From contig NC_049988.1 in NCBI RefSeq assembly GCF_000003815.2, forward strand, positions 184,000-247,999: DNA of 64,000 bases, in the 5' to 3' direction. Shown one piece after another: positions 5,891 to 60,200 of the stretch. The translations under genes were made by a program, and so were the position numbers. Numbering within the stretch: position 1 is the stretch's first letter; each line of letters begins with the position of its first letter. This stretch comes from Branchiostoma floridae (Eukaryota > Chordata > Leptocardii > Amphioxiformes > Branchiostomatidae). The notes beneath the pieces are model-generated. The model ran no database searches and was not told the origin of the DNA. It was given only the letters and a program-made list of their open reading frames with translations.

Positions 5891-5982
5891 AAAATCATAT
5901 AATAGAGCGGTTTATAGTCAATTACCATTGACACCGCTAAAAGAGCTCCTTAGGGCCCGGGATGTCCAAGATGCGTTTCGAC

Positions 5983-8900
5983 TTAGAGGGAGGAGCGCCG
6001 TGGTGCGTCAAGTGTTCCCTGCCCTGGGATCTCCCATGGCCAGTAGGTGTTAGGCAGTGTGACGAGGGGAAGGGAGGAGCGCCGTGGTGTGTCACGTGTT
6101 CCCTGCCCTGGGACCTCCCATGGCCAGTAGGTGTTAGGCAGTGTGACGAGGGATAGGGAGGAGCGCCGTGGTGTGTCACGTGTTCCCTGTCCTGGTATCT
6201 CCCATGGCCAGTAGGTGTTAGGCAGTGTGACGAGGGATAGGGAGGAGCGCCGTGGTGTGTCACATGTTCCCTGTCCTGGTATCTCCCATGGCCAGTAGGT
6301 GTTAGGCAGTGTGACGAGGGGAAGGGAGGAGCGCCGTGGTGTGTCACGTGTTCCCTGCCCTGGGATCGCCCATGGCCAGTAGGTGTTAGGCAGTGTGACG
6401 AGGGGAAGGGAGGAGCGCTGTGGTGTGTCACGTGTTCCCTGCCCTGGGATCTCCCATGGCCAGTAGGTGTTAGGTGGTGTGACGAGGGGAAGGGAGGAGC
6501 GCCGTGGTGTGTCACGTGTTCCCTGCCCTGGGACCTCCCATGGCCAGTAGGTGTTAGGTGGTGTGACGAGGGGAAGGGAGGAGCGCCGTGGTGTGTCACG
6601 TGTTCCCTGCCCTGGGACCTCCCATGGCCAGTAGGTGTTAGGCAGTGTGACGAGGGGAAGGGAGGAGCGCCGTGGTGTGTCACGTGTTCCCTGCCCTGGG
6701 ATTTCCCATGGCCAGTAGGTGTTAGGTAGTTGGACTAGAGAAAAAGACCCATGCCGTTGTGCATTACAGGTTTTCTCCCCTGGGATCTCCCAAGGCCAGT
6801 AGGTGATAGGCAATTTGACAAGAGGTAGGGACGCCCGCTTTGGTGTGTTAGGCCATTTTGAGAGAATCCCATTCGTGACGTTAACGTAATTCCTCACAGA
6901 TTGGTTAACAGCCTGACATATCATAGCTGTCCTCTGCTGTTTTCGGGCTTTGAACCCTTGGACCTCTGGAACTTTTATGTAAAAACTGTTACACTGGGAT
7001 TTGGTCTGTTTAACGGATCCGTACGTGGGAACGGATGATCTAGACCGGCGTTTGCTATGAGCTGTAGTGTTATCCCGATAGGCTTTCTCCCAGCTTGTGA
7101 CGGCACGAAAAGAAAAATCTGCGGCATCAGTATAGCAAGGCAGGTTCCCTCTTACCCCATCATCTGGAATGGTACTGTAAGTATGCCCTGAGGCAGGCAG
7201 AGGGCGCTGTGCAGCTGCCCCGTGATCTGGAATCTCACAGGAAGTGGGCGGCAAAGTAGGCAGGGGGCGCTGTGCAGCGGCTATGTGATCTGGAATCTCC
7301 CAGTATGTATGGGGGAGAGTTGGCAGATGATACTGAGCAGCTATTTCATCTGGAATCTCGCTGTAAGCAATTTCGATGGCGTACTGGGTAGCAGGCAATG
7401 ACCTGAAGGAGGCCTCATCAACCGAAGCAACCTTACACGGGAATGCAGGGAGGGAAGCCGACCTCAGCAAGCCGGGAAGGGCAACCCCAGGTGTTAAGAT
7501 GTGGGAATCACCGTTGGCTCTCCCGGCCTCAACTTTTAACCTTGCTTGGCGAAGCTTCCAAATCAGCACGACAATGGACAACGGAACCAGACCGACCACT
7601 GCCGACACAACGGAGATAAGAACATGACTATTTTCCTGAGGGGCATCTTGCCCAAGTGTGGTACTCACCTGCGGTGTTGACATGTCTCCTGGTTGAGAAG
7701 ATGTGTTGTCTAAGTGTATCAGCCTGGTTGAATCTATTCCGTAAGTGGTTGCTGGTGCTTCTGTCTGATCTTGGACCGGAGAAACGTCGAAAAAGAACTC
7801 CGAGTGATGATCTTTAGTGATCAGAATGCAGGTGATGTTCTTTGTGTTGTCACGTGTGGCGTGTGAATGCGTGGTGTGGTTTTGACTGAATTCAGACTCA
7901 GTGGCGGTGGTGAATGTGTTTGTGTCATGTGTTTGGACAAAAGACATGGCAACACCTTTCAAGGTTGCATTCCCTTTTGCAATGTAAGCCAGTCGGAACA
8001 TCAAGGTTTCCAGCAGGCCCACTGCAACACCCTTATCGTATTCCCAAGCATGTCTACACCATTCAAGCGTGTTGAGGACCAAGATGTCCGCTAGGGAGCA
8101 GTCAGTTGCCAAGACAACTACAGGGGCCTGGATAGAGATTGTGAAAAGAGAAGGATTCAAATCGCTACACGACTTGCCAGGGTTGAACGCTGCTAGGTCA
8201 ATCTTACGAGGCTCATTGACCGAGGAATCAAACGACCACCCAAATGAAATTTTTTGACTTACCTTGCTTTGCCTGGCACAGAATAGGAACTTGGGAACAC
8301 CAACAACCAATTTTGCCAACCCTTCAATTATATTGGTTGATCTGTCCAGGCTCCACATCAGATTATATGGCTTTGTGTCACGCACAGACGACAACATGTC
8401 ACTGCTGACATGGAGATTTGAAGATGAAGACTGTCCCTGAAACACCCCTCCATCCATACATGATAGATCAGTACCTTCCAGGTCTAACCAGCGCAGCTGT
8501 AGGTCTTGGAATGACCCAGCGGAAATGCTATGGATGGGATTAAATGCCATGTTTATAATTTTAGTGCTTCTCATTCCCAAGAACCAGGCAGGGTTTACGA
8601 CCATCAGTCGATTTCTCTCTAGGTCTAGTATATGTAGGACAGTAAGGTGCACGAACCCTCTTGACTCTATATGCTTGATCTGGTTGTTGGACAAAATCAG
8701 CATCAAGAGGTTCTCCAAGCCAGTAAACCAGGCCTGCTTAACTTCTGTCAACCTGTTAGAATCTAGTGATAGTCTGTTGAGATTGGAAAATGCCACAAAG
8801 GTGTTGCTTTCTATATCAGTTATCTCTGCTTCTACCAAAGCCAAAATATTGACCACTGAATGCTCGAGGGGTGCCATGGTCTTTGCCGAGAGAAGATGGA

Positions 8901-12279: not shown

Positions 12280-15200
12280 TTACGTACTTGCACGCTTACT
12301 AGAAGTGCCTGGAACAGCCTGGCATATGAAGCCAATCCGATTGTTGCATGACAAGTCATTCCACATGTCTTTTTCGGAATAATAAATGCAATCTTCATTT
12401 CCAAAAAAGTTGTTTGGCTCTCCTGGGGTCCAGAGGTTGTACGTCCCAAGTGCAGAGCCATCCACCCACTCAAAGCTTCCCTCTTTGCGCCGATCGTGCA
12501 GGCCGAACCAGAATTCCTCGTTGTCGCTCACGGACTTGTACAAGGAGATCAGAAAGTCGTTGGTATGAGGGTCCCGGGGCATGGCGAGTGTGCCGCCGTC
12601 TTCACGGCAGGTCGCAGCCGCATCGTTGAAGGTATGACGTATGCTGTAGACCATATAGCAGACTCCACGGGACATCGAGTAACCTTCGGGACAAGATGCT
12701 TGGAAAACAGCAACAGTAGGGAGATACATGGGTGATATAAACACTCGGAAACACTCGGAATTCCATCAAAAGCTAATCATCACAATTAATTTACTTAAAC
12801 ATTAATTTATACGGGCATAAAAAGTAAATGATTTGAGTCAGTATGTTACATTATAATGTACATTATCGATGAAGGATGTAAGACAATGATTAGTGTCAGA
12901 TTTAAATTTTCCATTTATACAAAAAAAATTAGGAAATATTGAAAATGTACATTATACCATTTGTGTGATTTCAGATTACTAGTGCAACAGATTTTCATTT
13001 CTTATCCCATTCTAATGATACAGTTCGACACGGTTAGCACACCTAACAATGGAAACCAACTTACCTGGTGACTTACTCAAGTCGCGAAGACGCTGCTCCA
13101 AGGCGGCGGTACGGTTGCGCTCCTTATCCAGGTCACGCTTCAAGGTGTCAACAGTGGCGAACAGTTGGCCTATGTCGTCTTGGTAACGCTTCAAGGCGTC
13201 GACAGTAGTGGACAGTTCAGAAATCTCCTACAAACGAATAAACATATTTTACATACTTCAGAATACCAAAGTAAGACAAAAAGTTGAATAAGAGTTCGGA
13301 CACCACATATCTAATAAAATATTTTGATTAACACAACTGCATAATCTATGCCTGGTTAGGTACACCTTTAACAATCCAATCATTTACGCCATGTACTTAT
13401 GACTCTTAAACATAAATTATGCACATTAGGGACGTATTTCCATTATTGGTATTTTCGAATCCTGCACCTATGACAAACTACATTTATGTAACAAATATTT
13501 GAGTCCTATAATGGAAAACACTGTATGTATGTATATATATGGACAGAGAGATGTTACCACATATGTTTTAACATATGATTGGAGCCCGCTGCGGTAAAAT
13601 GACAGTCTAGCTTTGCAACCCAGTCAAACTAAATGTTTTGCATGCAAGACTGATCAAAATCACCACAATTCGATGATTTATGTTCATTGTGAAATTTACA
13701 GATTGAACTTGAATTACATATAGTTTGAACATGTAACTTTGAAAGAAAGCTAAGTATATCATTGGGATATGGCCTGTCTGGTAGGTATAAAAAGCTAACC
13801 CCCTGTCAATAAATAGCCAGTCTAATACAAGTACTGTGCACTGAAAACTTGAAAAAGAATATGTGTTTACCTCTTTATTGATAAACGTCAGAGGGGTGAG
13901 TCCCACGGCGACAAGGCTCAGCAGAATGGCAATGCCGGCGGCGATGCAGCTGCGGTGGGAGCGGATGAGGCTACAGAGAGAACCGCGGCCGCATACGCAT
14001 GCTCCACCTTTATACACGCGATCTGTTAAGAGTCATTGCACGAGAAAACCAGGCAAAACCAGGCAGAGGCCGGAAGATGGGGGTCGGCCAAATCGACTCA
14101 AACTTTTTATGTGTGATAGGTATGTGGAACTATGAACAGCCATATAGTTAAAACCCTCCAGCTATTTTTCGTTATGGCGTTCTGGGACCCCCCTCAGGGA
14201 CCCTCTAAAATCCATCAATTTATGCCTGAAAATTACTGAAATTTCGATGGCTATTTTGAAAAATCTGATTAAGGTACGAACAAAAATCTTGCATTTTTTT
14301 AAAGCATAGGTTCTAAAGTGTTACAGACCAAAAGTTAAGAGGGTGTGCTAGGGGGTTACCTGAACCATTGAAAGCAGTAAATTTTAGTCATTTTTAAGGC
14401 GCAATAAAATCTATGCGCAGCGGGTCTGGTGAATGGTTTTAATGTTGATAGAGAGAGGAACATCTACTTATTCAAAAACAATCGTCGTCTAATTGGGCCA
14501 TACATAACGCGAGCCGTGAGAGGGGGGTCTTTATGGGGATTTTTCGGGTTTTGGTCTTTAGTAAATCGGGTGATTATATTACTCTATGGGGGGTAAGTCA
14601 TGGCGAATGTTTGCGAAGTTGTTTGTGAACCATGCATAATTGTCAAAATATCATGATTGATTGGCAATATTAATTTGGGCTCCATATGGGGGATTTGGGG
14701 ATACTATAAAAGGCATTTTGCTGATTTTATACATTTTACTGTTGCTTTCTAATGTTATTAAACTGGTATCTGTTCCTAAATTACTTTGTACATACCAGCT
14801 ATGTTGTGCACAATGAGAAGGCTCTACATGGGGGTTACCAGGACGCCACAAATGTGATACCATTTAATAGAAAGGGCACATGGATGCGGATCTACCTCAT
14901 ACATATTGAGAATCATAGAAGAAGACCACAACAAAGGTCAAGATTGATGCTTTTGGGGATAGATACGTGTACATTATACTTTTTTCATCAATACGGGTGC
15001 ACTATAGGTACTGCTATAGACAAACAGCATTACATCAGTGGTTTGTTAATATACCTGACTATTTATTCACCACTATAAGGTCATGCTGATTTGTGGAACT
15101 GATGTGAGTATACGAAAACAGAAATGACCGGAAAAAATTGCCTTTATCATGTCAATATTCAATAAGGCTATTTAAATGATGACTACATGTACATTTTACT

Positions 15201-18200
15201 TTTTTTATCAATTACGGTATACCATAGCGCACAGTTTAGGTTACAAAGTGCTGTACATTAATTGCAATTCATTCATTACCATAAGGACAAACCAAAAACA
15301 AAATCTATCTCAAAACATTTACATATCGAACCCCTTTAGTATCAAGTAAACTGTCGAGACGCAAATTCAAACGCAAAGGACAGTTTACTTTTGTTTAAGT
15401 GGTGATATAGCACTTTTGTCAAAATTACGCTATGAAAGAATAAATTAACTGTAACAAATTACAAAAATTACAGCCAAGCAGATTACAATATTGTACAAGC
15501 CTTTCAGCAGCACAGAGACAGCATGAAAGCACAGAATTTGTGGCCACTAACATGGAGTCAATAAACTAAATTTACATGGATAGAAGAGGAAGGCGAGTGG
15601 CAGGCACTGCAAACACACTATATACTAGCATTGACTACATTCATCTTTTCATGTATAAAGATGTAAACTTGAGTGAACTGGCAATAACCAGCGGCCTTGA
15701 ATCATTAAAGCTGAAGTAACTAAAACTTGTGTCAGACCATTTTCATCTGCTCGTTATAGGCTACATGACACTTCCTTTCATACAGGTATTGGAAACTATC
15801 CTAGGCACATGCACATACATGTGCCAATTGCTTTTTCATAGTTTTTTTACCAAAAATGTAAAAAAAAAGGCTTTCAAGAGATTTTGTACCCAATTGCAAT
15901 ATGTCTAGTGTTAGGTCCGACCAGAGTCTGTTAGCAATTACAGCTAAATGTTTAATCAGATTTTTAAAAATCTAATGTAGTTCTATGTAAAGGACTTTTT
16001 AGCTTGTGGTGTGCACATCAATTACAAGCTTTTTTCATTGTCAGAAAAAACGTTTAGATTTAAACCATACAGTAATTCATACAATGCAGCTACAAAATGA
16101 GCAAATATATGCCGTAGATTGCAAACACATCGGCAAACGTAAATGTGGACTAGTTACTTACAATGCCAACGTCAATTCCAAGGTCAAATGAGAAGATGTG
16201 AAAGAATGAAAATCAAGAATCTGTTGTTTGGTATATCATACTCTGTGTGTATTGTCATTTGTTCAGCTTTCTTGACCACACCACCTCACCATAATGGATG
16301 CAAATTTTTTCGGCCATTTTTTTTATTAGCCTACTCGCATCAGTTCCCTAATCAGCATGACCTTATAGTGGTGAATGTCAGGCATATTAACAAACCACTG
16401 ATGTAATGCTGTTCGTCTATAGCAGTACCTATAGTGCACCCGTATTGATGAAAAAAGTATAATGTACACGTATCTATCCCCAAAAGCATCAATCTTGACC
16501 TTTGTTGTGGTCTTGTTCTAGCTTTTGTTTAATATGCATGAAGTATATCCGCATCCATGTGCCCTTTCTATCAAATGGTATCACATTTGTGGAGTCCTGG
16601 TAACCCCCATGTAGAGCCTTCTCATTGTGCACAACATAGCTGGTATGTACAAGTAATTTAGGAACAGATACCAGTTTAATAACATTAGAAAGCAACAGTA
16701 AAAATGTATAAAATCAGCAAAATGCCTTTTATAGTATCCCCAAATCCCCCAAATTTATATTGCCAATCAATCATGATATTTTGACAATTATGTATAGTTC
16801 ACAAACAACTTCGCAAACATTCGCCATGACTTACCCCCCATAGAGTAATATAATCACCCGATTTACTAAAGACCAAAACCCGAAAAATCCCCATAAAGAC
16901 CCCCCTCTCACGGCTCGCGTTATGTATGGCCCAATTAGACGACGATTGTTTTTGAATAAGTAGATGTTCCTCTCTCTATCAACATTAAAACCATTCACCA
17001 GACCCGCTGCGCATAGATTTTATTGCGCCTTAAAAATGACTAAAATTTACAGTGACAAAAATTCTGCTTTCAATGGTTCAGGTAACCCCCTAGCACACCC
17101 TCTTAACTTTAATGCATCTTCTTCAACTTTTGGTCTGTAACACTTTAGAACCTATGCTTTAAAAAAATTCAAAACTTTTTTTTCGTACCTTAATCAGATT
17201 TTTCAGAATAGCCATCGAAATTTCAGTAATTTTCAGGCATAAATTGTTGGATTTTAGAGGGTCCCTGAGGGGGGTCCCAGAACGCCATAACGAAAAATAG
17301 CTGGAGGGTTTTAACTATATGGCTGTTCATAGTTCCACATACCTATCACACATAAAAAGTTTGAGTCGATTTGGCCGACCCCCATCTTCCGGCCTCTGCC
17401 TGGTTTTCTCGTGCAATGACTCTTAAACAAGAAATTTTTTTTTTTTTAAACTGGCAACGCAGCTTGAAATAATTGTGAGAATGAAATGGTAGGAGAAGGT
17501 ATTGAATGACTAGACACATAAGGAAAATGTCACGATTTTCCCTATCAACATCTGCTCGGAGAGTAAGCCCCCCATCTGAACTTAAGGTGTGCTGCTATGG
17601 CAACGTCAGAATTTATTCTTCCTTCTCTTTTGCTGCAAGAATATTAATAGCCATAGTATTATATTATATAGTAAACACACAAAAAAACAAGTCAGGAATA
17701 ACATACAGTGAAAAAGTACATAAAAGTAAACTATAAATTAACTGTCTAAATTAGTGACAGTGCCGAATAGTAGAGGGCCAAGATCAACATCACAGTAGAT
17801 ACAGGTAAATTAAGTCTTGCCGACATTGCTTCTTTTTAAATAAATACTGAATGACATTGTTAAGCATCTTATTTGACGTATTCGTACCAAACATATTTAT
17901 GTATACGAAATAGTCTGCCAGATGAGAAAAATATGATTTTGTTTGATGTTTACTTTCAACTTTTGCCTGTTTGTTGTACTTTGATAATGAAATATGACAT
18001 GAATTGATTGCTTTGGAAGTAAGATTCATCTGCATGGCAATCAAGTATTATGGCGACTGGTATAAGTACAAGCAGTCTCGTCGTAGATTCTCGCACGGTT
18101 TAACTGCCGTACACTTTTCAATCAGTGCGTGGCAAAACAAATTGCCTACAAGGATTTTAGACAGCAGCTTCCGTAACAAGATAAATGAAGTTTGTAACTA

Positions 18201-19749
18201 CACGAATATCTCAGTCAATCAGTTTCTGGTCACACGACAGTCGTTAAAAGTAAAGTAAAATTTATTGCAAATTCTTGCCCTTGGGCTTTTTGCAGGTAAC
18301 ATAAGAGATCGATATTCAAACAGTGTAAAAGAAAATCAAGTGTCTACTCTAGTCTAAAGCTAGTAAAAGCTAACTCTAGATCCTGGGTTATTGGGTTTGA
18401 CTCCTTTTTCGAAGACAGTGGAAGATGAAAGATCCCACCTTTTCCATTATGTAGTTATATAAAGAGCAGTTTAACATAAAATGTATTTCATACAGGAATG
18501 AGTGAGATTTTATAAATGTAACAAGACTCAAACGAGACAGGACGGCAGCAAAGCACAGACAAGACAGGAAAAAGTCTAAAGTATAAAGACAGGAGCAGGA
18601 CAAACATTGCAAAATTGCAAAATTCACCTGCTCTGGAGACGTATGAAGAGTTCGGTACAATCGCAGCTGCGTCAGCAACGTTTTGCCAATCAGGCTGCGG
18701 CTGCTGCATGGGTGTACTTATGTTGCCTGGAGAAAAGGGACAAAGTTAACCACATCCCTAATACAGAAGAAAGCATAAAACCGAGAGCAGAACAAGACGC
18801 CAAGAGCGGATTTTAAAATGTTCACCTGCTCTAGCGGCGTACATAGGGTTAGGTACCCTCGCAGCGGCGTCCGCACGTGCCTGCCAATCAGTCTGCGGCT
18901 GCTGTATGGGCGTGATGCCTGGAAAAAAATTACAAAATTAAGATGGCGCCGACGATTTTCTGGTAACACCAGTCGCTTAAAGATTTTATTGAAACAAAAT
19001 ACAACTATGGATCTATGGAACTATGGCTGGTTTTATTAGCCAAACAAAGCCGACCTGCTAAAAATTGACACTCTTTCCTTGTTATTGTAGACTAACCGAA
19101 AAAGATATGGGACTGGAGTTTTTCTGTCATGAATTAATACAATGATGACTAATGATGAAGTCGTAGTAAAAGTGGCGACTAGTCATGAAACTAAAGGCTT
19201 TGGTGGGAATATTATTTTGAGAGGAAGAAATTACAGCGCTTATTGTGTGATATTACAACGTCTCATTGCAGTTTTAAAAATATGCTCCATCTTGAGCTGC
19301 CATGCGTACCTACTCTTCACGTGCAAAGGTTTACAGACCTGAAATAACATTTACGGTTTTGCTTGATGCGTTCACAAATACTTCAACATCCTAAATGGTA
19401 GATGCCATCATCTTTGAACCAACTTTAAACCCCAATGGAGGGGTTTTCACTTGATCAAATGGCACAGAACTGGTATTGCTGAATGCTCGTGTCCTCACGG
19501 GGATATAGTTTTCTTCATAAAACGCATCTTCCACGTTCCATGCCTTGGCGTAGTGCTATGTAAACAATATGACAAGAAAAAACGCTCTACACCAAGGAAG
19601 GCACTGGTCAATCTTATATCTTATATTTATCAATACATAGACTTTACAAAAACAAACTTCATTGCCCACCGACATGTGAGGATAAATGATATCTAAAAAC
19701 AAAACTTGCCCGTGTCATCCGTTTCGGACTCCTGTTGTTCTCCAGGCAT
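12280..19749 (-). CDS. Type II membrane C-type lectin receptor (six exons, 321 aa)
   Basis: Exons, in coding order: 19749-19710, 18918-18826, 18726-18628, 14022-13871, 13227-13065, 12698-12280 (966 nt; all phases agree). The N-terminal tail is cytosolic, with two homologous 31- and 33-residue segments from a duplicated exon (PNPMY, then PNSSY). A transmembrane helix (AAGIAILLSLVAVGL) follows a Cys-rich juxtamembrane patch, then a coiled-coil stalk (KRDLDKERNRTAALEQRLRD) and a C-terminal C-type lectin domain. The CTLD has six cysteines, WFGLHDRR, the calcium/mannose-type EPN motif (GEPNNFFGNEDC) and WND (DMWNDLSC). EPN plus WND predicts calcium-dependent mannose-type sugar binding, as in the asialoglycoprotein-receptor/CD209-like arrangement. 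PNPMY fits an NPxY internalisation signal. Intron 1 has a GC donor. Intron 3 (4.6 kb) carries a 3.4-kb foldback element ending 3 bases before the exon-4 acceptor. No poly(A) signal was identified. Confidence 0.9.
14030..17422. mobile_element. 3.4-kb foldback transposon flanked by TTAA
   Basis: Two arms of about 1.1 kb, roughly 14030-15140 and 16290-17422, are inverted copies with small differences. They start with GAGTCATTGCACGAGAAAAC. The loop of about 1.1 kb has no recognisable transposase. TTAA stands at both edges (14026-14029 and 17423-17426), the target duplication typical of piggyBac and Kolobok superfamilies. It is a non-autonomous foldback within intron 3 of the lectin gene. The left end abuts the exon-4 splice acceptor. 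Confidence 0.85.
18256..18520 (-). mobile_element. 5'-truncated LINE tail
   Basis: Shares the 3' block CAAATTCTTGCCCTTGGGCT, AGGTAACAT and GACTCCTTTTTCGAAGACAG with copies at 45147-45360 and 57365-57843. The minus strand reads EIHFMLNCSLYN, a piece of the zinc-binding C-terminal tail seen more fully in the 57.7-kb copy. It lies in intron 3 of the lectin gene, in sense orientation. Confidence 0.7.
18628..18918 (-). repeat. Tandem exon duplication in the lectin tail
   Basis: Exon 2 (18918-18826) and exon 3 (18726-18628) are both symmetric 1-1 exons. They encode related peptides sharing QQPQxDWQ, ADAAA, VPN, Y and RA. Both end in GAGCAG|GTGAA. The bases after both donors also resemble each other, so the duplication included intron sequence. 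The intervening intron is 99 bases. Confidence 0.85.
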
Positions 19750-30200: not shown

Positions 30201-33200
30201 TGTTTCTTTTGTTTGTACGGTAGGCTTCCCAAGTCACAGATATACCTGTTCACTGACGCGGGAGCGAAAGACGTGCACCTTTTGCCGGCCGTCATTTCTC
30301 TCATCCAGCAGAAGAAGACGAAAATCACCTTCCTCCTCACGGGTTACTGTTCTGCACGGAAACGCCGAGATATAAAAGGTAACTTGGAAGACAACATTTT
30401 ATCGAAAATATAACTAAACAGCAACAAAGTGAGCAACACTTGCAAACCTTGGACTTATTAACGACTTACCATGGACCATAGTCACCCACAGTAAGTCCAA
30501 TCGTCTGAAAAAGGACTTACTCAGGGAGGACTGAAGAGAACTTACTGCCTAAATTGGTACAAAGGCCTTACTCTGGATAATAGTCCACCAAAACTAATTA
30601 ACACCAACAGTTCTCAAACATGGCAAAATGGGGTGGACTTACTCCGGTAGTAACTCCCCCTCGGACACAAGTAATTCCTCCTTCAGTCTACATTCATCCT
30701 CTTTTAGATCCAAGGTTTACATGCGAAATAGATGCCATGAATGTAAGAATGGATACTAATTTAATGTTTCTAAAATTCCAACGTCAATTCTGAAGTTAAA
30801 GAAGATGTGAGAAAATGACGGATGTCATTCATATAATCGAAATCATCATGGCAATTCTCTTCGCAATGCAGGAAGCAAAATCAGGACCCGTCGCCAGTCT
30901 ATAGGAGACACGCCGTTTCACACGATTGCACAGGAGTCCGGCGGAAAAGTGTACGACATCAACAAGAGTGAGGTGTCTGAAGTCGTGCGAGTCATCGAAG
31001 TGGAGGTGAACAGTGCTCCAGTCACGGTCCTGTCCTACAGTGTCACCAGCTCCGGGCCCAGAGACCACGACATTCCCGTGGACGAGGCTCTGTTGGAGAT
31101 GGTCATCACCATAGAAAGTTCAGTGGAGTCGCCGTCTTGTACCCTATACACACCCTCAGGTAATAAGGGGGGTTGAAACATTTTGCATTAAAGACCCATT
31201 AAAGTTGAACTATAATTTTCAGTACAAAAAACTGTCTGCCAAACTCCAGACAAGGAGTGAGCAATCCACTCGTTTTGTGACGTCACCTTATGCAGATAGA
31301 ACACGTGACTCAGCGATTCATTAACAATGGATCATAAGTTATAGAAAGTCTATGGCGCCCCCGTCTTTGTGGAGGGATGGTTGTAATGCCTCGATGTAGA
31401 TGGCTTCTTATTCCTCTCGCAAAAAAAATGCCTGTTTCTTTGTCCAACATTCTTACTATGTCCAGTTGTGAAACTTCCTCGGCACCATAGACTTACTGCA
31501 ACTTATGATCCACTGCATATGGTGACGTCACTCAAGCAGTGCATTGGCCATTGCTTATTCCTTGACAAAAACTGGGGTTGGATAGACAAACAATTCGGTC
31601 CAAGTTTTGTGTTAGAAACTACAGTTCAACTTCGATCCAGAATGACTTCTTCCCTTTGCCAGTAAACGTATTAACGCCAACCTCCCTTAGAACGAGATAA
31701 AGGAAATTTCAAGGACTGTGTGAACAACATTTTCAAGCATTTTCTTACTACATTTGTCTGTGGTTGTATATGCTACTTAAAGGTATTTCATTTACCCCAC
31801 AGGTATCGTCGCTGACTCAGCAATTGTTGAGGTTATCCTGAACAGTGGCGGGTACAAGGTGGTGAAGGTCAGCAGCCCTGCCGCGGGACTGTGGCGACTG
31901 CACCTGAACGATGCTCAGGCCTACAGCGTAGAAGTAGCAGGGAAAAGTGTCATGGACTTCTCTGCTGAGTTCACTGACCTGAGGGCCGGCATCCCCATCG
32001 ACGGGAGACCAATAGCAGGTGCGAATAATTTCCCGACAAAAACACCCCTGCATGCTCAAGAACATTCGTTAGGGGGCCCAATGTTTTTACATCAGTGCAC
32101 CCTGAAAGGCCCGTTTATTTTTGTCCGCAATTTTTTGCTACGTTCTGTGGATCCAGAGGGTTCAAACCCCAGCTTGGGCACATTGTGAGAAGCTGCATTC
32201 ATCATGTTGGATGGTGACGTTAAACCGGTGGTGTCACGTAGGGGCGCTTTAGGCTTCAGCCACAGTATGTGTCAACCCTCAGAATATAAAAGAACCCAAC
32301 ACACTTATGGATCCATGGAGAATAGAAAGGGTGACCATACCACAATTTGCACTTTTACTAACGACGTGACAAGCATCCAAAAATAAGTTCATTATTTTGG
32401 TAGACCATAGGACACAGGAGTTTGCTTTTACACAACCAGTTTTTCTCACGTTTCGATGTCCGTCAGACATCTTCCTCAGAGCTTCTAACTGGAGTTCTGC
32501 TTCTCGCCGCTATATGTCGCTAGCCGATGTAGGTGGCGCATTTGCGGCGAGAACACTATCCCAAACATGGCTGTGTTTGTACATCTCCCCCCCCCCCTCG
32601 TCCCGGTTCATCACTGGGGTGGACTTCCTTATCAAGACTACTTCTTTAATCCAACAGATTCGTCTGTTGTCTTCTCTGTCTATCCCCCCTGAAAAAGCAT
32701 ACTTCACCTCAAATGGCTGCTTGGTCATATTGATTATGCATTTCTATATTTTTGTTATGATAGGAGTTGACTATGTGTTGGCTGTAAGAGGGACCGGTTT
32801 GGAGAATGCAGGAAGTGTGACCTCGGTAACGCTGCGAGACGTGACAGGCACGGCCCTTACAACAGTCAACCTCGCGGAAAGCTCTGGCGTGGGGGAGGCT
32901 GTCTACACCGCTACCGTTACACCTCCTAATCAAGTAAGGCTTAGGACACAATTGGCCCGGTGCCCGTCAGGGATGTAGCCCCGGCCGGGCTCTGAAGTCG
33001 GGCGGACACGTATACCGGCAGTTTACCGGCTGTTGTACGAGCGGGTTCCTGGTTCATTGTAAGTCCGACTCAAATTGAACCAGGGGCTTATCCCCCCACC
33101 CCCACCTCCACCCAAAAACAAAAATACCGGCCGCCGCGAGGTGTCCCACAGGACCACGCAGGGGTAACGCCCGAATGTGGCCAAAAAACAGCCCGTGAAC

Positions 33201-36200: not shown

Positions 36201-39200
36201 TCTGTGGGAACCCCAAAACTGATGCTAGCGTGCGAAAAAAAAAAGTTTGGCAAAAAACTTGGCTTCATGATGAAAATCTAAGTGGTCCGGAAAGTTGAAG
36301 AAATGACTAAACACGCAGCGTATGGTATAACGAATGTAGATTCTTAATTTTTTTTTAAAGATTCTTCTTGACCTTAGCATCGTACGAACTAAGTTCTGGT
36401 ATCTGGTATGTTATTGTAATTTACGACATATATTTGGTCATTTTACAGCTGCTTTGTTTTATTACAATTGGACGAAAACTGGTTTAATCGCGTGTGCGGA
36501 TGTCATACATAATTCTGTACATGGCCTAAAAGATAGATTCTTGTTGTCTTTATGCACAGTTCAACTTGCTGCAGTCCTAAAATGACGGTTACTGTGGTGG
36601 ACTTGGCTGGGTTTGTGGACCATTGTGTCGTGGACTTTTCCATTCCAGGTATGTATTATCAACACCCGGGCAGAAAAACAAGTCTAATTGTTCGGTAGTT
36701 TTGCTACTTTGTCAGACCACTACAGTCGTTACAAAGCAGAAGTCGTTTCGTTACGTAACAGAAGTCGTGTAGGCAAAAGTCGTTTCGTTACAGGGCAAAA
36801 GTCGTTTCGTTACATGGATGAAGTTGTTTCGTTATAAGGCAGAAGTCGTTTCACTACATGGCATAAGTCGTTTCGGTCTTTTCGCTACAAAGCAGAAGTC
36901 GTTTCGTTACATAGCAGAAGTCGTTTCGTTAGATGGCAGAAGTCGTTTCCCCACATGACATTTGAATGCTATCTCTTATTATATATCATATTTATTAGAA
37001 CCCGCCTCATACAAGCTTAACACGGCTAGTTTACATTGAGGTCTTTCATAAAAACAGCTGTGTAAAATGCATCATGACAAAAGAGAAACTAACTGAATCT
37101 GTTTTCGCTTTTCCAGCCTGTAACAGTAACCCATGTCTGAACGGTGGCGTCTGCAGTGAGAGGCATCCAGACGGGTACTTCTGCGCATGTCCGACTGGTT
37201 TCGTCGGCAACAACTGTGAAAGTGGTGAGTTTTATCAGCATTATGTATATATACAATACATATATTCAATACATATATTCAATACATTTGTTTTCTCAAA
37301 TTCTGTTTAAATTTTGGCATCCTCTTAGCGGTTACTGACTAAAAATAACATAAGGTGGGTTTTATCTATAGTATTTGTTCAGTTTTTACTTGTTATACAG
37401 TAAATTAGGGTAAAAGCATATTGGTTCCTTCGTTAAAACTCATGAGGAGTCTATGCACGTGTACACTGAGTCTGTGAGCGTTGAACGACTACTGGGTGAC
37501 CAGAACTTTCATTTTGGTAGTGAAATCGAATTAGATTAGTAGATAATGTACTTACAGTGCATGTGAAGTTCTGTGTACTTTGTTGTCTTTAAAATTCCAG
37601 TTTAGTTTTTCATCCTGGATCATATTCAGTTTACATGGGTGACATACAATCCCAATGTTGGTTGTTCATTCTGCATCTAACCATGTCAGTTCGCAACAAG
37701 GCAAGTCTTTCTCTGCCGCCGGGGTTGTCTTCCGCACCCGGTAATATTTCTACGCGAAAGGAGTATGATTATGTTAGGAATACGATTTTTAAAACTATTA
37801 GGCTAAAAAGATTAATAACATTCAAATGTTGCGAAACGACTTAAACCTTGTTGCGAAAATATTTGCCTTGTTGCGAACTGACGGTTGCGAACTGACATTG
37901 TCGCAAAACAACTTGTTACCAAATGTTGATAACCATTTACACCAACAATTGTCTATGTGTTACAGTTACAGCCGACTACTGCTCTTCGTTGCATCCCGAC
38001 CTTCTCCCTGGTAACTTCGGCGCTTATGAGAGCAGCTGTTTTTGGTTCTCTCCCAAGACGGGAACCCGGCGGACCTACGAATCAGCCAGACAGTTCTGTA
38101 AATCCAAAATGGCCAACAAAGGCACACTGGCCATGATAAAGGATGCCGGCACACAGGCTTTCATTACAACCTTCCTGAGGGCTACCAAGGCTGGCAAAAA
38201 GAAGTAAAGAACTAAAGAATTCCATTGGACCAAATTGCTACCGTCCAATTGAGGCCCTTGTCAGGGAATGAGCAAAGCACTGCTTCTGTGACGTAGCGTT
38301 TATTAATAATGCAGAAAGACAATGTTTGTTTTATTTTGTTTGAACCTTTATTTCTTCATGAGAAGGCAGGCCGCTTTTCATGAGGGAGATAAGGGTCAGA
38401 TAAAATATAATACAGATACAGAGTACTAATAAAATCCATCAACCTATATCACTACACATACATGGTACAAAACATATATTATAGTGGGACAAGAAGCTCA
38501 GTGTTCATAGTCCGTGTCCGTTAGTTTTGGTCATTACATTTATCTTGCAGCTCAAAAACATGTTGCCCGCCATTCAGCAGAATTTATTGTCATATCCCAA
38601 GTCAAAAATCCTCTAGTTCTGACAATCGTACATAACAATTAATGTAAAAATACAACTTGATTCAACATTTGCGAATCAACATTTCTCATATATTAAATCA
38701 TGTACATCACATAAAGATGGAGTAACGTCATGCGGTTATTACTGAGCTATGCAATACATAATATTAGGTACATTTAGATACATGCAGATAGATACTAATG
38801 ATTTCATCAATCATGCTTTATCTTGTTTTTGGCAGGCGTTATTGGATAGGCCTGGACGATCTGAACACTGAGCGCACCATGCGGTGGAATGACGGAACAG
38901 CACTTGGAGCCTTCAACAGCTTCCGACCCGGCCCCATTGCTCCTAATAAGATCAGGGACTGCGTCCTCCTGTGGAAGCAGCGGCAGTGGAACATCGTCAA
39001 GTGTGGCAAAGTGCTGCCGTACATCTGCCAGATGGGTGAGTAACACTACTCTCCAAGCAGAGGTTGGTGGCAAAAATCGTGACCTTACACTTTCATCAAT
39101 TTTTTTTTCGACCGGCATTCCCGTTCAAAGGCTATTATCACCTGATCGCTATCCTATCAAACTCCCCTTCCACGTATAGTGACTTCACTTGTGTGATTGT

Positions 39201-44276: not shown

Positions 44277-47200
44277 ATGAGCAGTGACACCGACAACAGC
44301 AAGGAGATGTCCAAACATCTGAGGAATGGAAACTCCGAGGACCAGGGCGGCAATTGGCGACTCTGGGCCAAGGTAAGACATCATGACATACAAGGCTTTT
44401 TTTATAAGCTTAAATTTTATCACGAATTGTTGCTACAAATTTCAACAATCTTAATGAATGAAACAAATGTACTTAAGACTTAAGGCGTCATCTTTGACCT
44501 CACGTATAAGCAGGTTAAACGGTTCACAGGCTTACAAACACTTTCTCTTTTCAAGACCTCGTGAACCGATTGATGAGTGAAATTTTTGATTGGGCATTCT
44601 ACTTCATGTAGGTAACACTTTCGAAACAATTCGGAATAATACAATCTTTTCCGACAGCTTTAAATATGATTAAAGGTCAAAGTTAATGCTTGCATGAAGA
44701 ATTGAAGCGTTCCAATGTAACAATGTAAATAGCTTATTCAGGACTAGAAATGTTTGAGATATCTGGTATATAGATACATATGAGGTTTCAATGTTTTAAA
44801 AATTTTGTTATTGACATTTAGCTTGATTTTTTCCTCTGTAAAGTAACTACAGTGGGTAAAACGTTGTTCGCATTCATAACAATTGTTATGCCATATCTTT
44901 TTTATCAAATATAATTGACTTTGATATCAACTAGACACCTTTGTTGTTAACTCTGTTTGATACATTGAGATATTACGTGGAGTCCGTGATGAAACGATTT
45001 TAGCCAGTAACATCACATTGGTGATTTCATAGCTACGCCATATTTGATCATAACGATACCACCATTTTCGGAGTGATTAGGATTTATGAGTTCATCCCTC
45101 TATGAATTAAATGATCGTGCACCAAGCCGTTAGAAATTATACTATATAAATTTTACTGCAAATTCTCGCCCGTGGGCTTTTTGCAGGTAACATGACAGAT
45201 TCAAACAGTGTAAAAACAATATCACAAGTGTCTACTAGATCCTGGGTTATTGGGTTCCACTCCTTTTTTCGAAGACAGTGGAGGACGAAAGATTCCACCT
45301 TTTCTATTATGTCTGGGTTTTGTGATGTTAGAATGAGAATTGTTTTCTTTATGTCATTATAAAGAAGGTTGGATACCCCCGCCCTACCACCCCCCCCCCC
45401 CCCCTGGTCTGGGAATCCGCAAAAGCCCAGTTTGGATAGGGTTAACAGTTCCCTTCACCAAGTTACAAGCCTCAACACTCATGGCAGCTCTCTCTCTGTG
45501 CTTCCTCAGAACCTCTCAGGTGTAGCAGCCTGCCTGGCGAGCAGTTTCTTCAAAGGCCCAGTACCAGCAACATCGCGATACGTCATAGACCGAGGATACA
45601 CACCATATCAGATGCTTTTCTTGGATGACTTGCTGATTTTCCTTGTGGCACTGAGCATCACTGTGTACCAACGCATAGACATGCTGCCAAAAGGCTGGAA
45701 ACATGGAGTCCACTTGATTTTTCTCGGATGCGCACGGTTTACCAGTGTCATTTGCCTGTTCACGGCGTTCCAGTTTATTCCACCTGCGACCGCAGAAGCC
45801 GTGTGGAACGCCAGTATGCCGGTTTTTGTGGTGACCCTGTCCTGTATCTTCCTTCAACAGGTAAATAGTGAACTAATTCTTAACCTTTACATTTCGTGAA
45901 CACTGCTAGTAATAGTTTACCAGCCGACGTGTCAATAAACTGACAATTAGACGGGCGAAACTGACTGTTTCTGCTTCAAACTGACCGTTTCTGCTTTAAA
46001 CCGACTCAGTTTCTGCTTCAAACTGACTGTTTCAAAGCGACTCAGTTTCTGCTTCAAAGTGACTGTTTCTGCTTCAAACCGACTCAGTAACTGCTTCAAA
46101 CTGACTGTTTCTGCTTCAAACTGACTGTTTCTGCTTCAAACCGACTCAGTTTCTGCTTCAAAGTGACTGTTTCTGCTTCAAACCGACTCAGTATCTGCTT
46201 CAAACTGACTGTTTCTGCTTCGATCATATAGATGGCGTCCTCGAAGGAGCTTAAATCTCCGAAGGTGTCCGAACAACATCTTACCAAAAATTTGCTTTCA
46301 TTATGAAATCTGAGCTAAAGCTTGGGGAAAGCTTTTACGAATGAAAACAGACATACATTTTGCCTGGTATTCTGTATAAGAGAGATTCCTCATTTTCCCC
46401 CCGCATCTTTGACTTCGGAATCGACTTAGACATTGTATAAAACTTATGGCCGTTTTCCAATTTATATTCGCAATTTACGTCATATGCATGCTTTGTGCGA
46501 TTTAGCATTTAATCGAATCCTTCTTGTCCGGAGAAGGAAAGAAAAAAATATGCGCGCGCTAATGTCATCCACATATTCGTATCAGCATGGCCTAATCTTA
46601 CACGTATTTTTTCATGTCAGGGGACTAAAAGTTGAGTTAAAGCTCAACTCTTGCGACAACTACAAGGCGTTTTACTGTTTTAAATTTTCTTACATTCCAG
46701 ATTCCAACTCGTGTGACCATCCTCGGCAGCATGTGGTGCGTAGCAGGTGTTGTGCTTCTGGGCTACGGTAGCTTCGTCAACATGACGTCATCAGCGGATA
46801 CCACTGACGTCACTCTTGGACAGATTCTAGCCGTAACAGGAGCGCTGATTCACTCCATGCTTGACGTTGGAGCCAAAAATATTTTAGAAACCACCCCGAG
46901 GGCAAAGGCTGTGATGTACACATACGCTATAAGTACACTCTCTGCCGGGATAGGAGCGTTTGTTACCAGTTCCACGTGGCAGCTTGAACCAGTGACTGCT
47001 ACAGTCTTAGTGCTAAGCTGTTGTAGCCATGGTGTGGGTATGATGTTCTTCTATATTGGTCTCAAGTTAGTAGAGGTTAATGCAGTTACTGCACTGATTC
47101 AGCTCAGCGCGTTTCCGGCCTATGGTGTACAGTGGGCAATGCTGGGGTTCGCTCCGACAGTTTTAGATGGCGTGGGTCTAACATGTGTACTGATAGGGGC

Positions 47201-47835: not shown

Positions 47836-48047
47836 AAATAAAAATTTAGGCCGGACGTGACGGCCGATATATTTTGTTTTGGCCCAATGTTATAGGGGCT
47901 AAGCATTAGACCGAAGTTCTCTTCGAACAACCAATCAGCGTTCAGAGATTAGAACGCTGAATCATTCTTGGCAGAGATAGAAGAAGGACAGTTTGAAATC
48001 TCCCGAGCTCCCCGTCCAAAGTGGGAAGTTAATCGCTTGTTTTTGTG
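47836..48047 (+). repeat. 212-bp direct repeat, copy 1
   Basis: Nearly base-for-base identical to 51999-52208 (one visible difference, GCATTAGACC versus GCATTAAACC). It holds the palindromic core CAGCGTTCAGAGATTAGAACGCTG. No TIR at its edges, so a MITE is not obvious. AATAAA words at its start could act as poly(A) signals for the transporter gene upstream. Confidence 0.9.
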
Positions 48048-51596: not shown

Positions 51597-51998
51597 GTGT
51601 ATTGTCTATTTGGTGTTCAGGAGTGCCTATTGTATGGCATTCCTTCGTGAAGAGACTAGAATTTGTTCATGAGAGAAACAGCACAGTATCGTGGAAAGGG
51701 GTATCCGATGGTCACGTTTCCAGAGAATCATTTTCTTGTTCATGCCTACCTTACTGGCCTTTCTTATCGCCTATCGGCTCGCTCTGGGGGGGTTTCGTCG
51801 CTATCGCTCCCTTGGCGGGTGGAAAAATCGTAATTGATTGTTGTTTATAATATTACAACGTTTGTTATGTTTTATGCCAGTCAATAAAATTTGCTGGTAT
51901 TCCCACCAAGAAATATTTTGTGTGGAGTGATTATGGGTTCTTTCTGGATATAATAACGGCCGAGAAGGTAGGCATAAATTCATTTTTGTGAAGCAAAA

Positions 51999-52208
51999 AT
52001 AAAAATTTAGGCCGGACGTGACGGCCGATATATTTTGTTTTGGCCCAATGTTATAGGGGCTAAGCATTAAACCGAAGTTCTCTTCGAACAACCAATCAGC
52101 GTTCAGAGATTAGAACGCTGAATCATTCTTGGCAGAGATAGAAGAAGGACAGTTTGAAATCTCCCGAGCTCCCCGTCCAAAGTGGGAAGTTAATCGCTTG
52201 TTTTTGTG
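51999..52208 (+). repeat. 212-bp direct repeat, copy 2
   Basis: Partner of 47836-48047, in the same orientation 4.16 kb away. The sequences beyond both edges differ apart from a GTGAGTTTA word. Confidence 0.9.
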
Positions 52209-57243: not shown

Positions 57244-60200
57244 TTAAGTGTCTGGAGATGGCTTTCTGCAACAAAAATGAATTAACTACTTTAATGTTTG
57301 AATATGTTTTGTATTCACATGGGCAATTTTACAATTCAATGTGTCAATATATCACAACAACAAAAACATAAGTTTATTGCAAATTCCTGCCCGTGGGCTA
57401 ATTGCAGGTAACATGACAGATTCAAACAGTGTAAAAAAATATCACAAGTGTCTACTCTAGTCTGAAAATAATAAAAGCTAACACTAAATCCTGGGTTGTT
57501 CGGTTCGACTCCTTTTCGAAGACAGTGGGGGACGAAAGATCCCACCTTTTCCGTTATGTGTGGGTTTTGTGATGTTAGAAGGAGAATTATTGTTTTCTTT
57601 TTGTCAGTGAATGTAAACAAGATTGGGTGGAATTTGGTGGCCTCTTCAAACAGCTCTTTTCTTTTGTGATCGTAGAAAGAGCAGTTTGACATAAAATGTA
57701 TTTCGTCTTCCATCACGATTGACGTGCATTGATTGCACGTTTTTTCACACACGGGTAGCTTCTTGTACCGCCCTCTCTCAATTTCAAGAGGGTGGGCACT
57801 ACTTCTAATGTCAACGCGATAATAACATCGTTTTTTATTCTGAAAATGTATTCAACTCACCTCTGATGTTTTGTTGTTTTGAACTTTATTATAAGGACCG
57901 TTGCGATGATTACTCCTACAACAACTACTGTTGTGGATACTGCAATGGCAATTATTGCCCCAGATGTCAAACCAGCAGGAGGAGGTGTGGGATCATCTAT
58001 ACAAAAACATAGTATGAACTATTACAAGAACCCACTCTTCGTGAATATTAAATATTGAAAATAAAACATCTATAGTCCTTAGATGTTTATCATGTATAAA
58101 CCATATTTGAACTAAATGTGGCAGGCTAAAGCAAGTAAATCATTGGATGGGTATTTATTATCGTATCTTGCTAATTCAAGTCACCAAGCCCAGAAGACGC
58201 CAAAACAAGGAAGATACATTAATTAAGTCAGATCAAATGAAACATAAGTGATACATAATAATGATACAATTAAAGTTACCCATAGGTCATAATTATGAAA
58301 AGTCTTCTGAACATATCCAGTTTTAAGAGAACACACACACACACACATACGTGCGCGCGCACACACACACACAAACACACACACATACGCACACGCACAC
58401 ACACACACACGCGCGCGGAAACATACACACGCACGCGCACACACATGCAAGCACAAACATGCACACACGCACGCGCGCGCATATTATACACAACAATTCA
58501 ATTCACAAAATGACATTTATTTACTCACCACAATCACTTTCGTCACTTCCATCCCCACAGTCGTCAGAGAAGTCACACTCGGCACTCCTGGGTAGACATG
58601 CCTGGTTAGTGCAAACAAAAGCATCTTGTCTGCACTGATGCCAGTTACCTGAGCAAATTAAGTAAAAGATTGTGTCTGTTCCCCTCTGCAATTTATATCA
58701 CCAACAGCCAGATTTAGCGGCACATATACCTTACAGAAAGTAGAAAATAGTACAAAAACTAGAGTTCCACGAAACACATACCTTCGCCAAACATTCAAGG
58801 TTCGTTATGGAGAATGCCTTTATCAATGACTTAAAGGTTTTATAGCTTCTCAAATTATGTTATCCGCACACACACTCACACACTGAGCCCGCTGCAGTAC
58901 CGATGGAAGATACCGGGCGAACCATTTTCAAACTCAACCTTTGTTTCTGCGACCGCTACTCAATACCAAGTATCATGAAGATCCATCAATCAGTTCTCCA
59001 GTTATACTGTTGACCTACATAAAGACTCACCTAACACTATGGCTTAAGCCTTAACCAAAAGTTTAATCTTCTTGGCGAAGGTAATGAAAAGGCCACAAAC
59101 CACCAAGCTTCCACTTTTCCCTGCCACATACATGTAAGCATCACCAATATAAGGCCCGGAAAAACACCCCTTGACATCAAAATGGAGAAACCCCTTTCCC
59201 ATAGTGCACAAACAAACAACATGGAACTTGCAAAGTGAGAACTAATAAACAATGTGTTAGCAACAATAACATCTATGTTTTGATGACACAAATATGTCAT
59301 GAACAACACAAATCTGCACCACAGATGTATTTAAACACTGAGCACTGACTGTCCAGAAGAAAGGTCAATTGAAGGATTTACACATTCTTCTAATTATCAT
59401 GTAAATTAAGCCCTGATTTGCATACAATACATTTCAGGATTTTAATCATTACCTAAGGTATGTACTTACCAAAAATAATGCAAATCCACCAACCACTGCT
59501 TGATTTACTCTCTTTCAAAGATAACAACAAAATCGCCCACTGCAGTTCAAAACAAGCCGCCAGGGGGCCCAAACTTACATGATTTACTCCCTACCCAAAG
59601 ACGTATCCACTAGCCAAAAATCCTCAACCTGCCACTTCAGGATAACTATAACGCCAACTTCGACGGTCCGCTGCAGTACCACAACTTGTCGCCAGGATGC
59701 CCATTATCGAACTTGACCGTCGTTTTCCAAACCCCTAAATAATTACCAAATATAATGCAAAACGATCCACAGCGTCAAAAGTTATCTTGTACGCAGATAC
59801 ACACACACACACACACTCACCCCGCTGCACTCACGACAGAAAGCGCCAACAGTACCATTTTCGTACAAAACCTTGCTATACGCAACCGCAACTCAAATAC
59901 CAAATATCGCGACATTCCATCCTCAGCTACCAAAGTTATTTGAGATTGACCTATATACTGGGACACAAAAAAATTTTCTAACCATAACATGACCTTCTTG
60001 GCGAAGGTAACAATACTTTAATTACTCACCTACACATCGTACTGACACATCCCTGGCATGGTTACAAAGTGGACTCCAGTTTTCCCATGGTTTCGTGCGA
60101 CAATCGGTGATTTTGGATTCGTTCCTGGAGTTACATATAACCTCATCTAGTAAGATGGGTGTTGAGTTCGGTGCAGGATACCTGTTGAAGTAGAAAGGCG

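Follow-up and report, generated by a model that had tools for sequence, protein, structure and literature searches.

A TTAA-bounded foldback transposon lies three bases upstream of a C-type lectin exon in Branchiostoma floridae

Results

A foldback element adjoins exon 4 of a C-type lectin gene

We analysed a 64,000-nt stretch of the amphioxus Branchiostoma floridae genome (contig NC_049988.1, positions 184,000 to 247,999; C10:184000-247999 in our searches of the assembly, 513 Mb in 431 contigs), hereafter the window, in which a copy of a non-autonomous foldback DNA transposon stands directly upstream of exon 4 of a C-type lectin gene. The gene reads on the minus strand. Its last exon (12280..12698) encodes the C-type lectin domain (Pfam Lectin_C, 85.7 bits against a cut-off of 22.6); exon 5 (13065..13227), for which all Pfam matches fell under the cut-off, probably encodes a coiled-coil stalk; and exon 4 (13871..14022, 152 nt), placed by peptide matches and a frame check, encodes a hydrophobic segment that is presumably a membrane anchor. 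Directly upstream of the intron split by the element lies the exon at 18628..18726, placed by a frame check, followed further upstream by its duplicate at 18826..18918, whose peptide is 69% identical. The exons were picked by eye and then checked computationally for splice dinucleotides and frame: an AG acceptor precedes each of the five, a GT donor follows each of the first four, and together the exons form a single open frame to the terminal stop. The acceptor of exon 4 is thus consistent in reading phase, as a preliminary description of this locus had claimed.

The element occupies 14026..17426 (3,401 bp, with the TTAA at both ends included). The arm adjoining exon 4 (14026..15139, plus strand) and the arm facing the upstream intron (16303..17426, minus strand) enclose an inter-arm loop of ~1.16 kb (15140..16302). 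Both arms, each ~1.1 kb long, are built of inverted-repeat blocks, the longer ones measuring 303 nt (99% identity), 249 nt (96%), 144 nt (98%) and 122 nt (96%) and the shorter ones being 73-100% identical; over 1155 columns including gaps the arms are 91.5% identical. Long inverted arms account for ~2.2 of the 3.4 kb, the structure of a foldback element. Reading of the sequence and comparison with the family identified the TTAA beside the acceptor (14026..14029) and that at the far end (17423..17426), both given on the plus strand, as the target-site copies.

The minus-strand sequence at the near end is CTCGTGCAATGACTCTTAACAG|ATCGCG, with the AG at 14024-14023 and the exon starting at 14022, and the near TTAA stops three bases short of exon 4 (CAG|AT). 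The preliminary description had put this distance at two to three bases and had taken everything before TTAACAG for transposon; the minus-strand reading settles on three, and element sequence does continue upstream of the TTAA for 3.4 kb. The arms and both TTAA sites that it reported were likewise found when the blocks were measured. We are confident that the insertion and its structure are real.

The element belongs to a TTAA-targeting family with a coding partner

We searched the genome with 395 bp of the near arm and scored the best 40 of 284 candidates. Among the best-scoring 28 other arm loci (L003-L030), 27 start with TTAA, the exception being L015. Outside the TTAA, the flanks of these 28 loci differ as judged by eye, with the flank of L014 masked. 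Five complete copies, of 3,285-3,483 bp, carry TTAA at both ends. Copies of the end motif GCAATGACTCTTAA in the genome number 159 (79 + 80), as compared with 1 + 0 for the reversed control, a count that is not due to chance and that corresponds to about 80 elements if two ends are kept in most of them. Terminal inverted repeats are present in the family. Judged by these repeats and the TTAA flanks, the family appears to be a TTAA-targeting cut-and-paste DNA transposon.

At one locus (C3:5482192-5489168) two family ends lie 7 kb apart and enclose an open frame of 1193 codons, located within L089 (C3:5483600-5487800). The 1193-residue protein, a candidate transposase, had no Pfam family above the cut-off and no convincing relative in the PDB (best E 0.68), and its superfamily could be Sola3, Kolobok or piggyBac. 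Sola3 and Kolobok have TTAA as their target site, and so, in the parts of its description available, does piggyBac, as in the window family. Ends that start with GAG next to TTAA give a Sola-like resemblance, and we take Sola3 as a guess for this family.

The loop of the window copy contains a relic of the 3' end of this gene (15470..15816, plus strand; by blastn, 73% to L089 in 356 columns). A protein relic inside 15720-15905 matches the C-terminus of the 1193-residue protein in 18 of 31 residues (BLASTP, E 3e-9). The decayed end of the gene persists in the loop, which marks the window copy as having arisen by deletion from a TTAA-targeting DNA transposon. Elsewhere in the loop, the segment 16159-16278 has a 116-bp, 77% match in an unrelated lectin intron (L051:342-455), and 51 bp of it recur at window positions 30771-30818, which points to a repeat nested inside the loop.

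The acceptor AG is native and one intron was split

The peptide of exon 4 was searched against the genome, the best 150 of 311 candidates were scored, and the 29 best-scoring of the 149 other matches were fetched as a paralog set. CAG stands at the identical position in 29/29 of these paralogs without the element adjoining it, which shows that the AG of the window acceptor (CAG at 14023..14025, minus strand) is native. The only match to the element in the 29 loci was the loop piece in L051, ~1 kb from the acceptor. (C/G)TAACAG is found in 23/29, and the sequence further upstream is the family's own, for example TTTTAAAAGCTCTTGTTTTCTAACAG. Past the far end of the element the intron matches 15 of the 29 loci in blocks of 68-75% identity; one intron was therefore split rather than newly made. 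The adjacency of TTAA and CAG would by itself permit a transposon-made acceptor, a possibility that we rate as practically nil and that the element-free CAG in all 29 fetched paralogs rules out.

The preliminary description had offered as an alternative that the element landed between the branch region and the AG, and the paralogs agree with this: the CAG is native, and the upstream tract is now separated from it by the element. Its refuting condition, an orthologous locus with the same 40 bases before the exon but free of the element, was asked of these paralogs, and other sequence stands there in all 29. Its further claim that the transposon supplies the pyrimidine tract is right as to place, with transposon directly upstream of the AG, and is conditional as to function: recognition of exon 4 would depend on transposon sequence only if the exon is still spliced at this AG.

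The displaced sequence and the TTAA target

Removing the element computationally and rejoining its flanks gives TTTAAAAAAAAAAAAATTTCTTGTTTAACAG|AT. The far end of the element abuts a repeat, R1 (17427..17660, minus strand), whose terminus AACAAGAAATGC is common to 7 other copies examined, with small changes in two; two of the copies (L062 and L086) duplicate one another over a long stretch. The displaced tract reads TTTCTTGTTTAACAG, and the last 18 rejoined bases are identical in 16 of 18 positions to the R1 end plus TAACAG (5 copies). This identity suggests that the tract may already have been repeat-derived, the pyrimidine-rich terminus of R1 then being what the element displaced. It is also possible that the tract is native, the natural TTAACAG paralog L107 reading TTTCTGTTTAACAG. 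A 19-base stretch at the R1 end matches paralog intron ends as well (BLAST E 0.001; 1/500 shuffles scored as high).

Of the 19 listed places with TTTAACAG, 7 were fetched, and 6/7 encode an exon-4-like peptide as judged by eye. TTAA is thus natural at this position in the gene family, and no special target event is needed; a TTAA target born where R1 meets native sequence was considered and is needless. Matches to the acceptor motif number 146 in the genome against 44 in the reversed control, with 100 listed. At the 35 exon-4 matches among 40 of these 100, the -7 base is C in 24, G in 11 and T in none; 65 of the 149 other exon-4 matches are included.

Strength and folding of the present acceptor

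We compared the present acceptor with the rejoined empty site and with the 29 paralogs, whose acceptors are predicted too. Between -20 and -5 the present site has 9/16 pyrimidines, as has the rejoined site (9), within the 8-13 of the paralogs; the tract is modest. Between -30 and -5 it has 17/26 against 11 when rejoined and 14-20 in the paralogs, which is normal for the family, and its AG-free stretch measures 74 nt against 31 and 17-78, respectively. The last two figures would be expected of an effectively neutral element, the conserved AG and the transposon end splicing as well as the empty allele; we consider this unlikely in view of the lower score than that of the rejoined site, the missing branch motif and the hairpin described below.

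Several observations count against efficient use of the acceptor. It scores -0.98, above 6/29 and below 23/29 of the paralogs and below the rejoined site (0.23), on a generic metazoan profile untrained on this genome. No yTnAy branch motif was found within 100 nt of it, as is the case in 6/29 paralogs, and the rejoined site has two, at -63 and -57. Two AGs inside the exon, at +52 (3.0) and +73 (5.77), outscore it and shift the frame. In the minimum free energy (MFE) fold, all bases from 14045 to 14023, CAG and tract included, are paired. As to the scores, the paralogs span -2.65 to 5.69, with 18/29 at >=3.1, and the present site lies inside that range. As to the internal AGs, one also outscores the native site in L056 and L044, the two paralogs checked, so this argument is weak. 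These score, tract, branch and AG figures neither prove nor exclude use of the acceptor.

The pairing comes from a single MFE fold of 3,660 nt of pre-mRNA, which matches 1,057 of the 1,114 bases of the near arm with bases of the far arm. In the portion available of a study of one hairpin exon (PMC4615370), the exon was included less the more stable its hairpin was, and a splice signal buried in a stem of this kind would presumably suffer. If the hairpin closes the acceptor, and with a weak tract and no branch motif, the inserted copy could be a null or near-null splice allele, with exon 4 skipped or the +52 or +73 AG used and the mRNA frameshifted; skipping is computed to give a stop three codons past the junction. 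We regard such an allele as possible though not probable. The paired acceptor, the low rank of its score and the missing branch motif speak for it; against it, 6/29 paralogs score lower and 6/29 lack the motif, and folding during transcription may differ from the MFE fold and, with protein binding, may keep the end open. That the downstream exons are open is weak evidence against a null allele, as a null that arose recently would not yet have led to visible decay.

Age, polymorphism and recurrence

In an alignment with the five complete copies, 37 substitutions (1.28% of 2,894 ungapped columns) and six deletions are private to the window copy. Private substitution is 0.90-1.45% in four of the compared copies and 11.75% in L012. 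Even the most similar complete copy shares just 94.9% identity with the window copy, so that the estimate of age assumes the shared variation to reflect older subfamily structure. Inverted repeats present in many copies are difficult to assemble and a single assembly was examined, and a misjoined foldback copy would be an assembly error; we hold this to be very improbable, given the TTAA at two ends, the private substitutions and deletions, and the homology of the intron past the far end to paralog introns.

Amphioxus heterozygosity is given as 3.2-4.2% in the available part of a published report (PMC12500494). Together with the low private divergence, this suggests that the insertion could still be polymorphic, and it may perhaps be recent enough for an empty allele to persist. 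A search with 1,200 bp of flank, in which the best 40 of 1387 candidates in the single assembly were scored, found no second copy of the locus. Many of these 40 flank matches, at 87-90% identity, are accounted for by a ~200-bp repeat in intron 3 (18254-18452), which also occurs at 45147-45349 and 57370-57596.

YAG follows within 0-6 nt at 23 of the 159 family ends. At 12 of the 22 such ends other than that of the window, read by eye, there was no convincing exon start, L098 being ambiguous. The window locus is the only family end shown to abut an exon among the ends read.

Discussion

A foldback insertion into an existing lectin acceptor

We propose that a foldback element inserted into the pre-existing acceptor of a lectin exon and that, on balance, exon 4 is probably still spliced correctly but less efficiently. 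The non-autonomous copy of the TTAA-targeting transposon would have entered a TTAA at -7..-4 (...TTAA|CAG|exon), and duplication of the target would have restored TTAACAG, so that AG, exon and frame survived. The branch region and pyrimidine tract came to lie 3.4 kb further upstream. Should exon 4 still be spliced at its conserved AG, the spliceosome has to rely on the transposon end TTTTCTCGTGCAATGACTCTTAA as the tract and for branch-site binding; as the element is an inverted repeat, either orientation of insertion would present nearly the same end. Some transcripts would leak to exon-4 skipping, with its early stop, or to downstream AGs, and the inserted allele may still segregate against an empty one.

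The locus offers a clean natural experiment: only the tract and branch region have been exchanged and a long stem placed against the acceptor, with AG, exon and frame left intact. Heterozygotes, if they exist, would show how far a transposon end replaces a native acceptor and what the stem does in vivo. Since TTAA at -7..-4 is natural in 6/7 of the fetched places, acceptors of this kind offer TTAA transposons a standing target. A bolder reading, which we find decidedly doubtful, is that the transposon end is a complete, orientation-independent donor of tract and branch site for a pre-existing AG, that the 1.1-kb stem acts as a structural switch on the lectin exon, and that TTAACAG is a recurrent landing place for TTAA transposons. 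If this were true, coding sequence would survive such landings and gene families would form natural allele series of splice strength.

Comparison with known systems

Transposon insertions can supply splice signals in existing genes, as in the cases of Alu, Ds and Tc1. These share with the window locus a transposon-derived tract or site that faces the host spliceosome; the window locus differs from them in retaining the native AG, with the element ending three bases from the exon. The locus adds to this known phenomenon of transposons at splice sites and is useful mainly as a natural experiment. Searches of open-access papers for a transposon end supplying a tract or splice site, and for amphioxus cases, brought up no title or abstract that describes a similar one.

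Among the literature compared, the nearest published kind with ends or duplications at splice sites is the introners, intron-generating transposons of which, in the parts of the source available, some have terminal inverted repeats and target-site duplications, with ends or target duplications at splice sites, and some carry one splice site and recruit the other from the target-site duplication (PMC9860276). The window element likewise has an end or target duplication at a splice site. Introners, as described there, create new introns, whereas the window intron and AG were already there and the element exchanged only what lies upstream of the AG, as seen in the CAG shared by all 29 fetched paralogs and the intron that continues past the element. 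Family median lengths of introners are 30-654 nt in the same source (PMC9860276), in contrast to the 3.4 kb and 1.1-kb arms of the window element. The foldback-type elements Galileo, Tetris and Tm1, according to the available extracts of their descriptions, resemble the window element in their long inverted arms and non-autonomous copies; Galileo belongs there to the P superfamily and Tm1 to Mutator, whereas the window family is bounded by TTAA and has GAGTCATTGCACGAG ends.

Other features of the window and the gene family

Exon-4 peptide matches are densely clustered at C10 17.5-23.8 Mb, where they mark a large related lectin-type gene family. A second C-type lectin domain lies in pieces on the plus strand of the window (38067-39031), with E 8.7e-11 for 38840-39031 and only E 0.12 for 38067-38183. 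An 84-bp tandem repeat at 5903-6874 comprises 9 registers with 77-100% identity to the reference. A 212-bp direct repeat (47836-48047 and 51997-52208), 100% identical and 4161 bp apart, possibly represents the ends of a young element.

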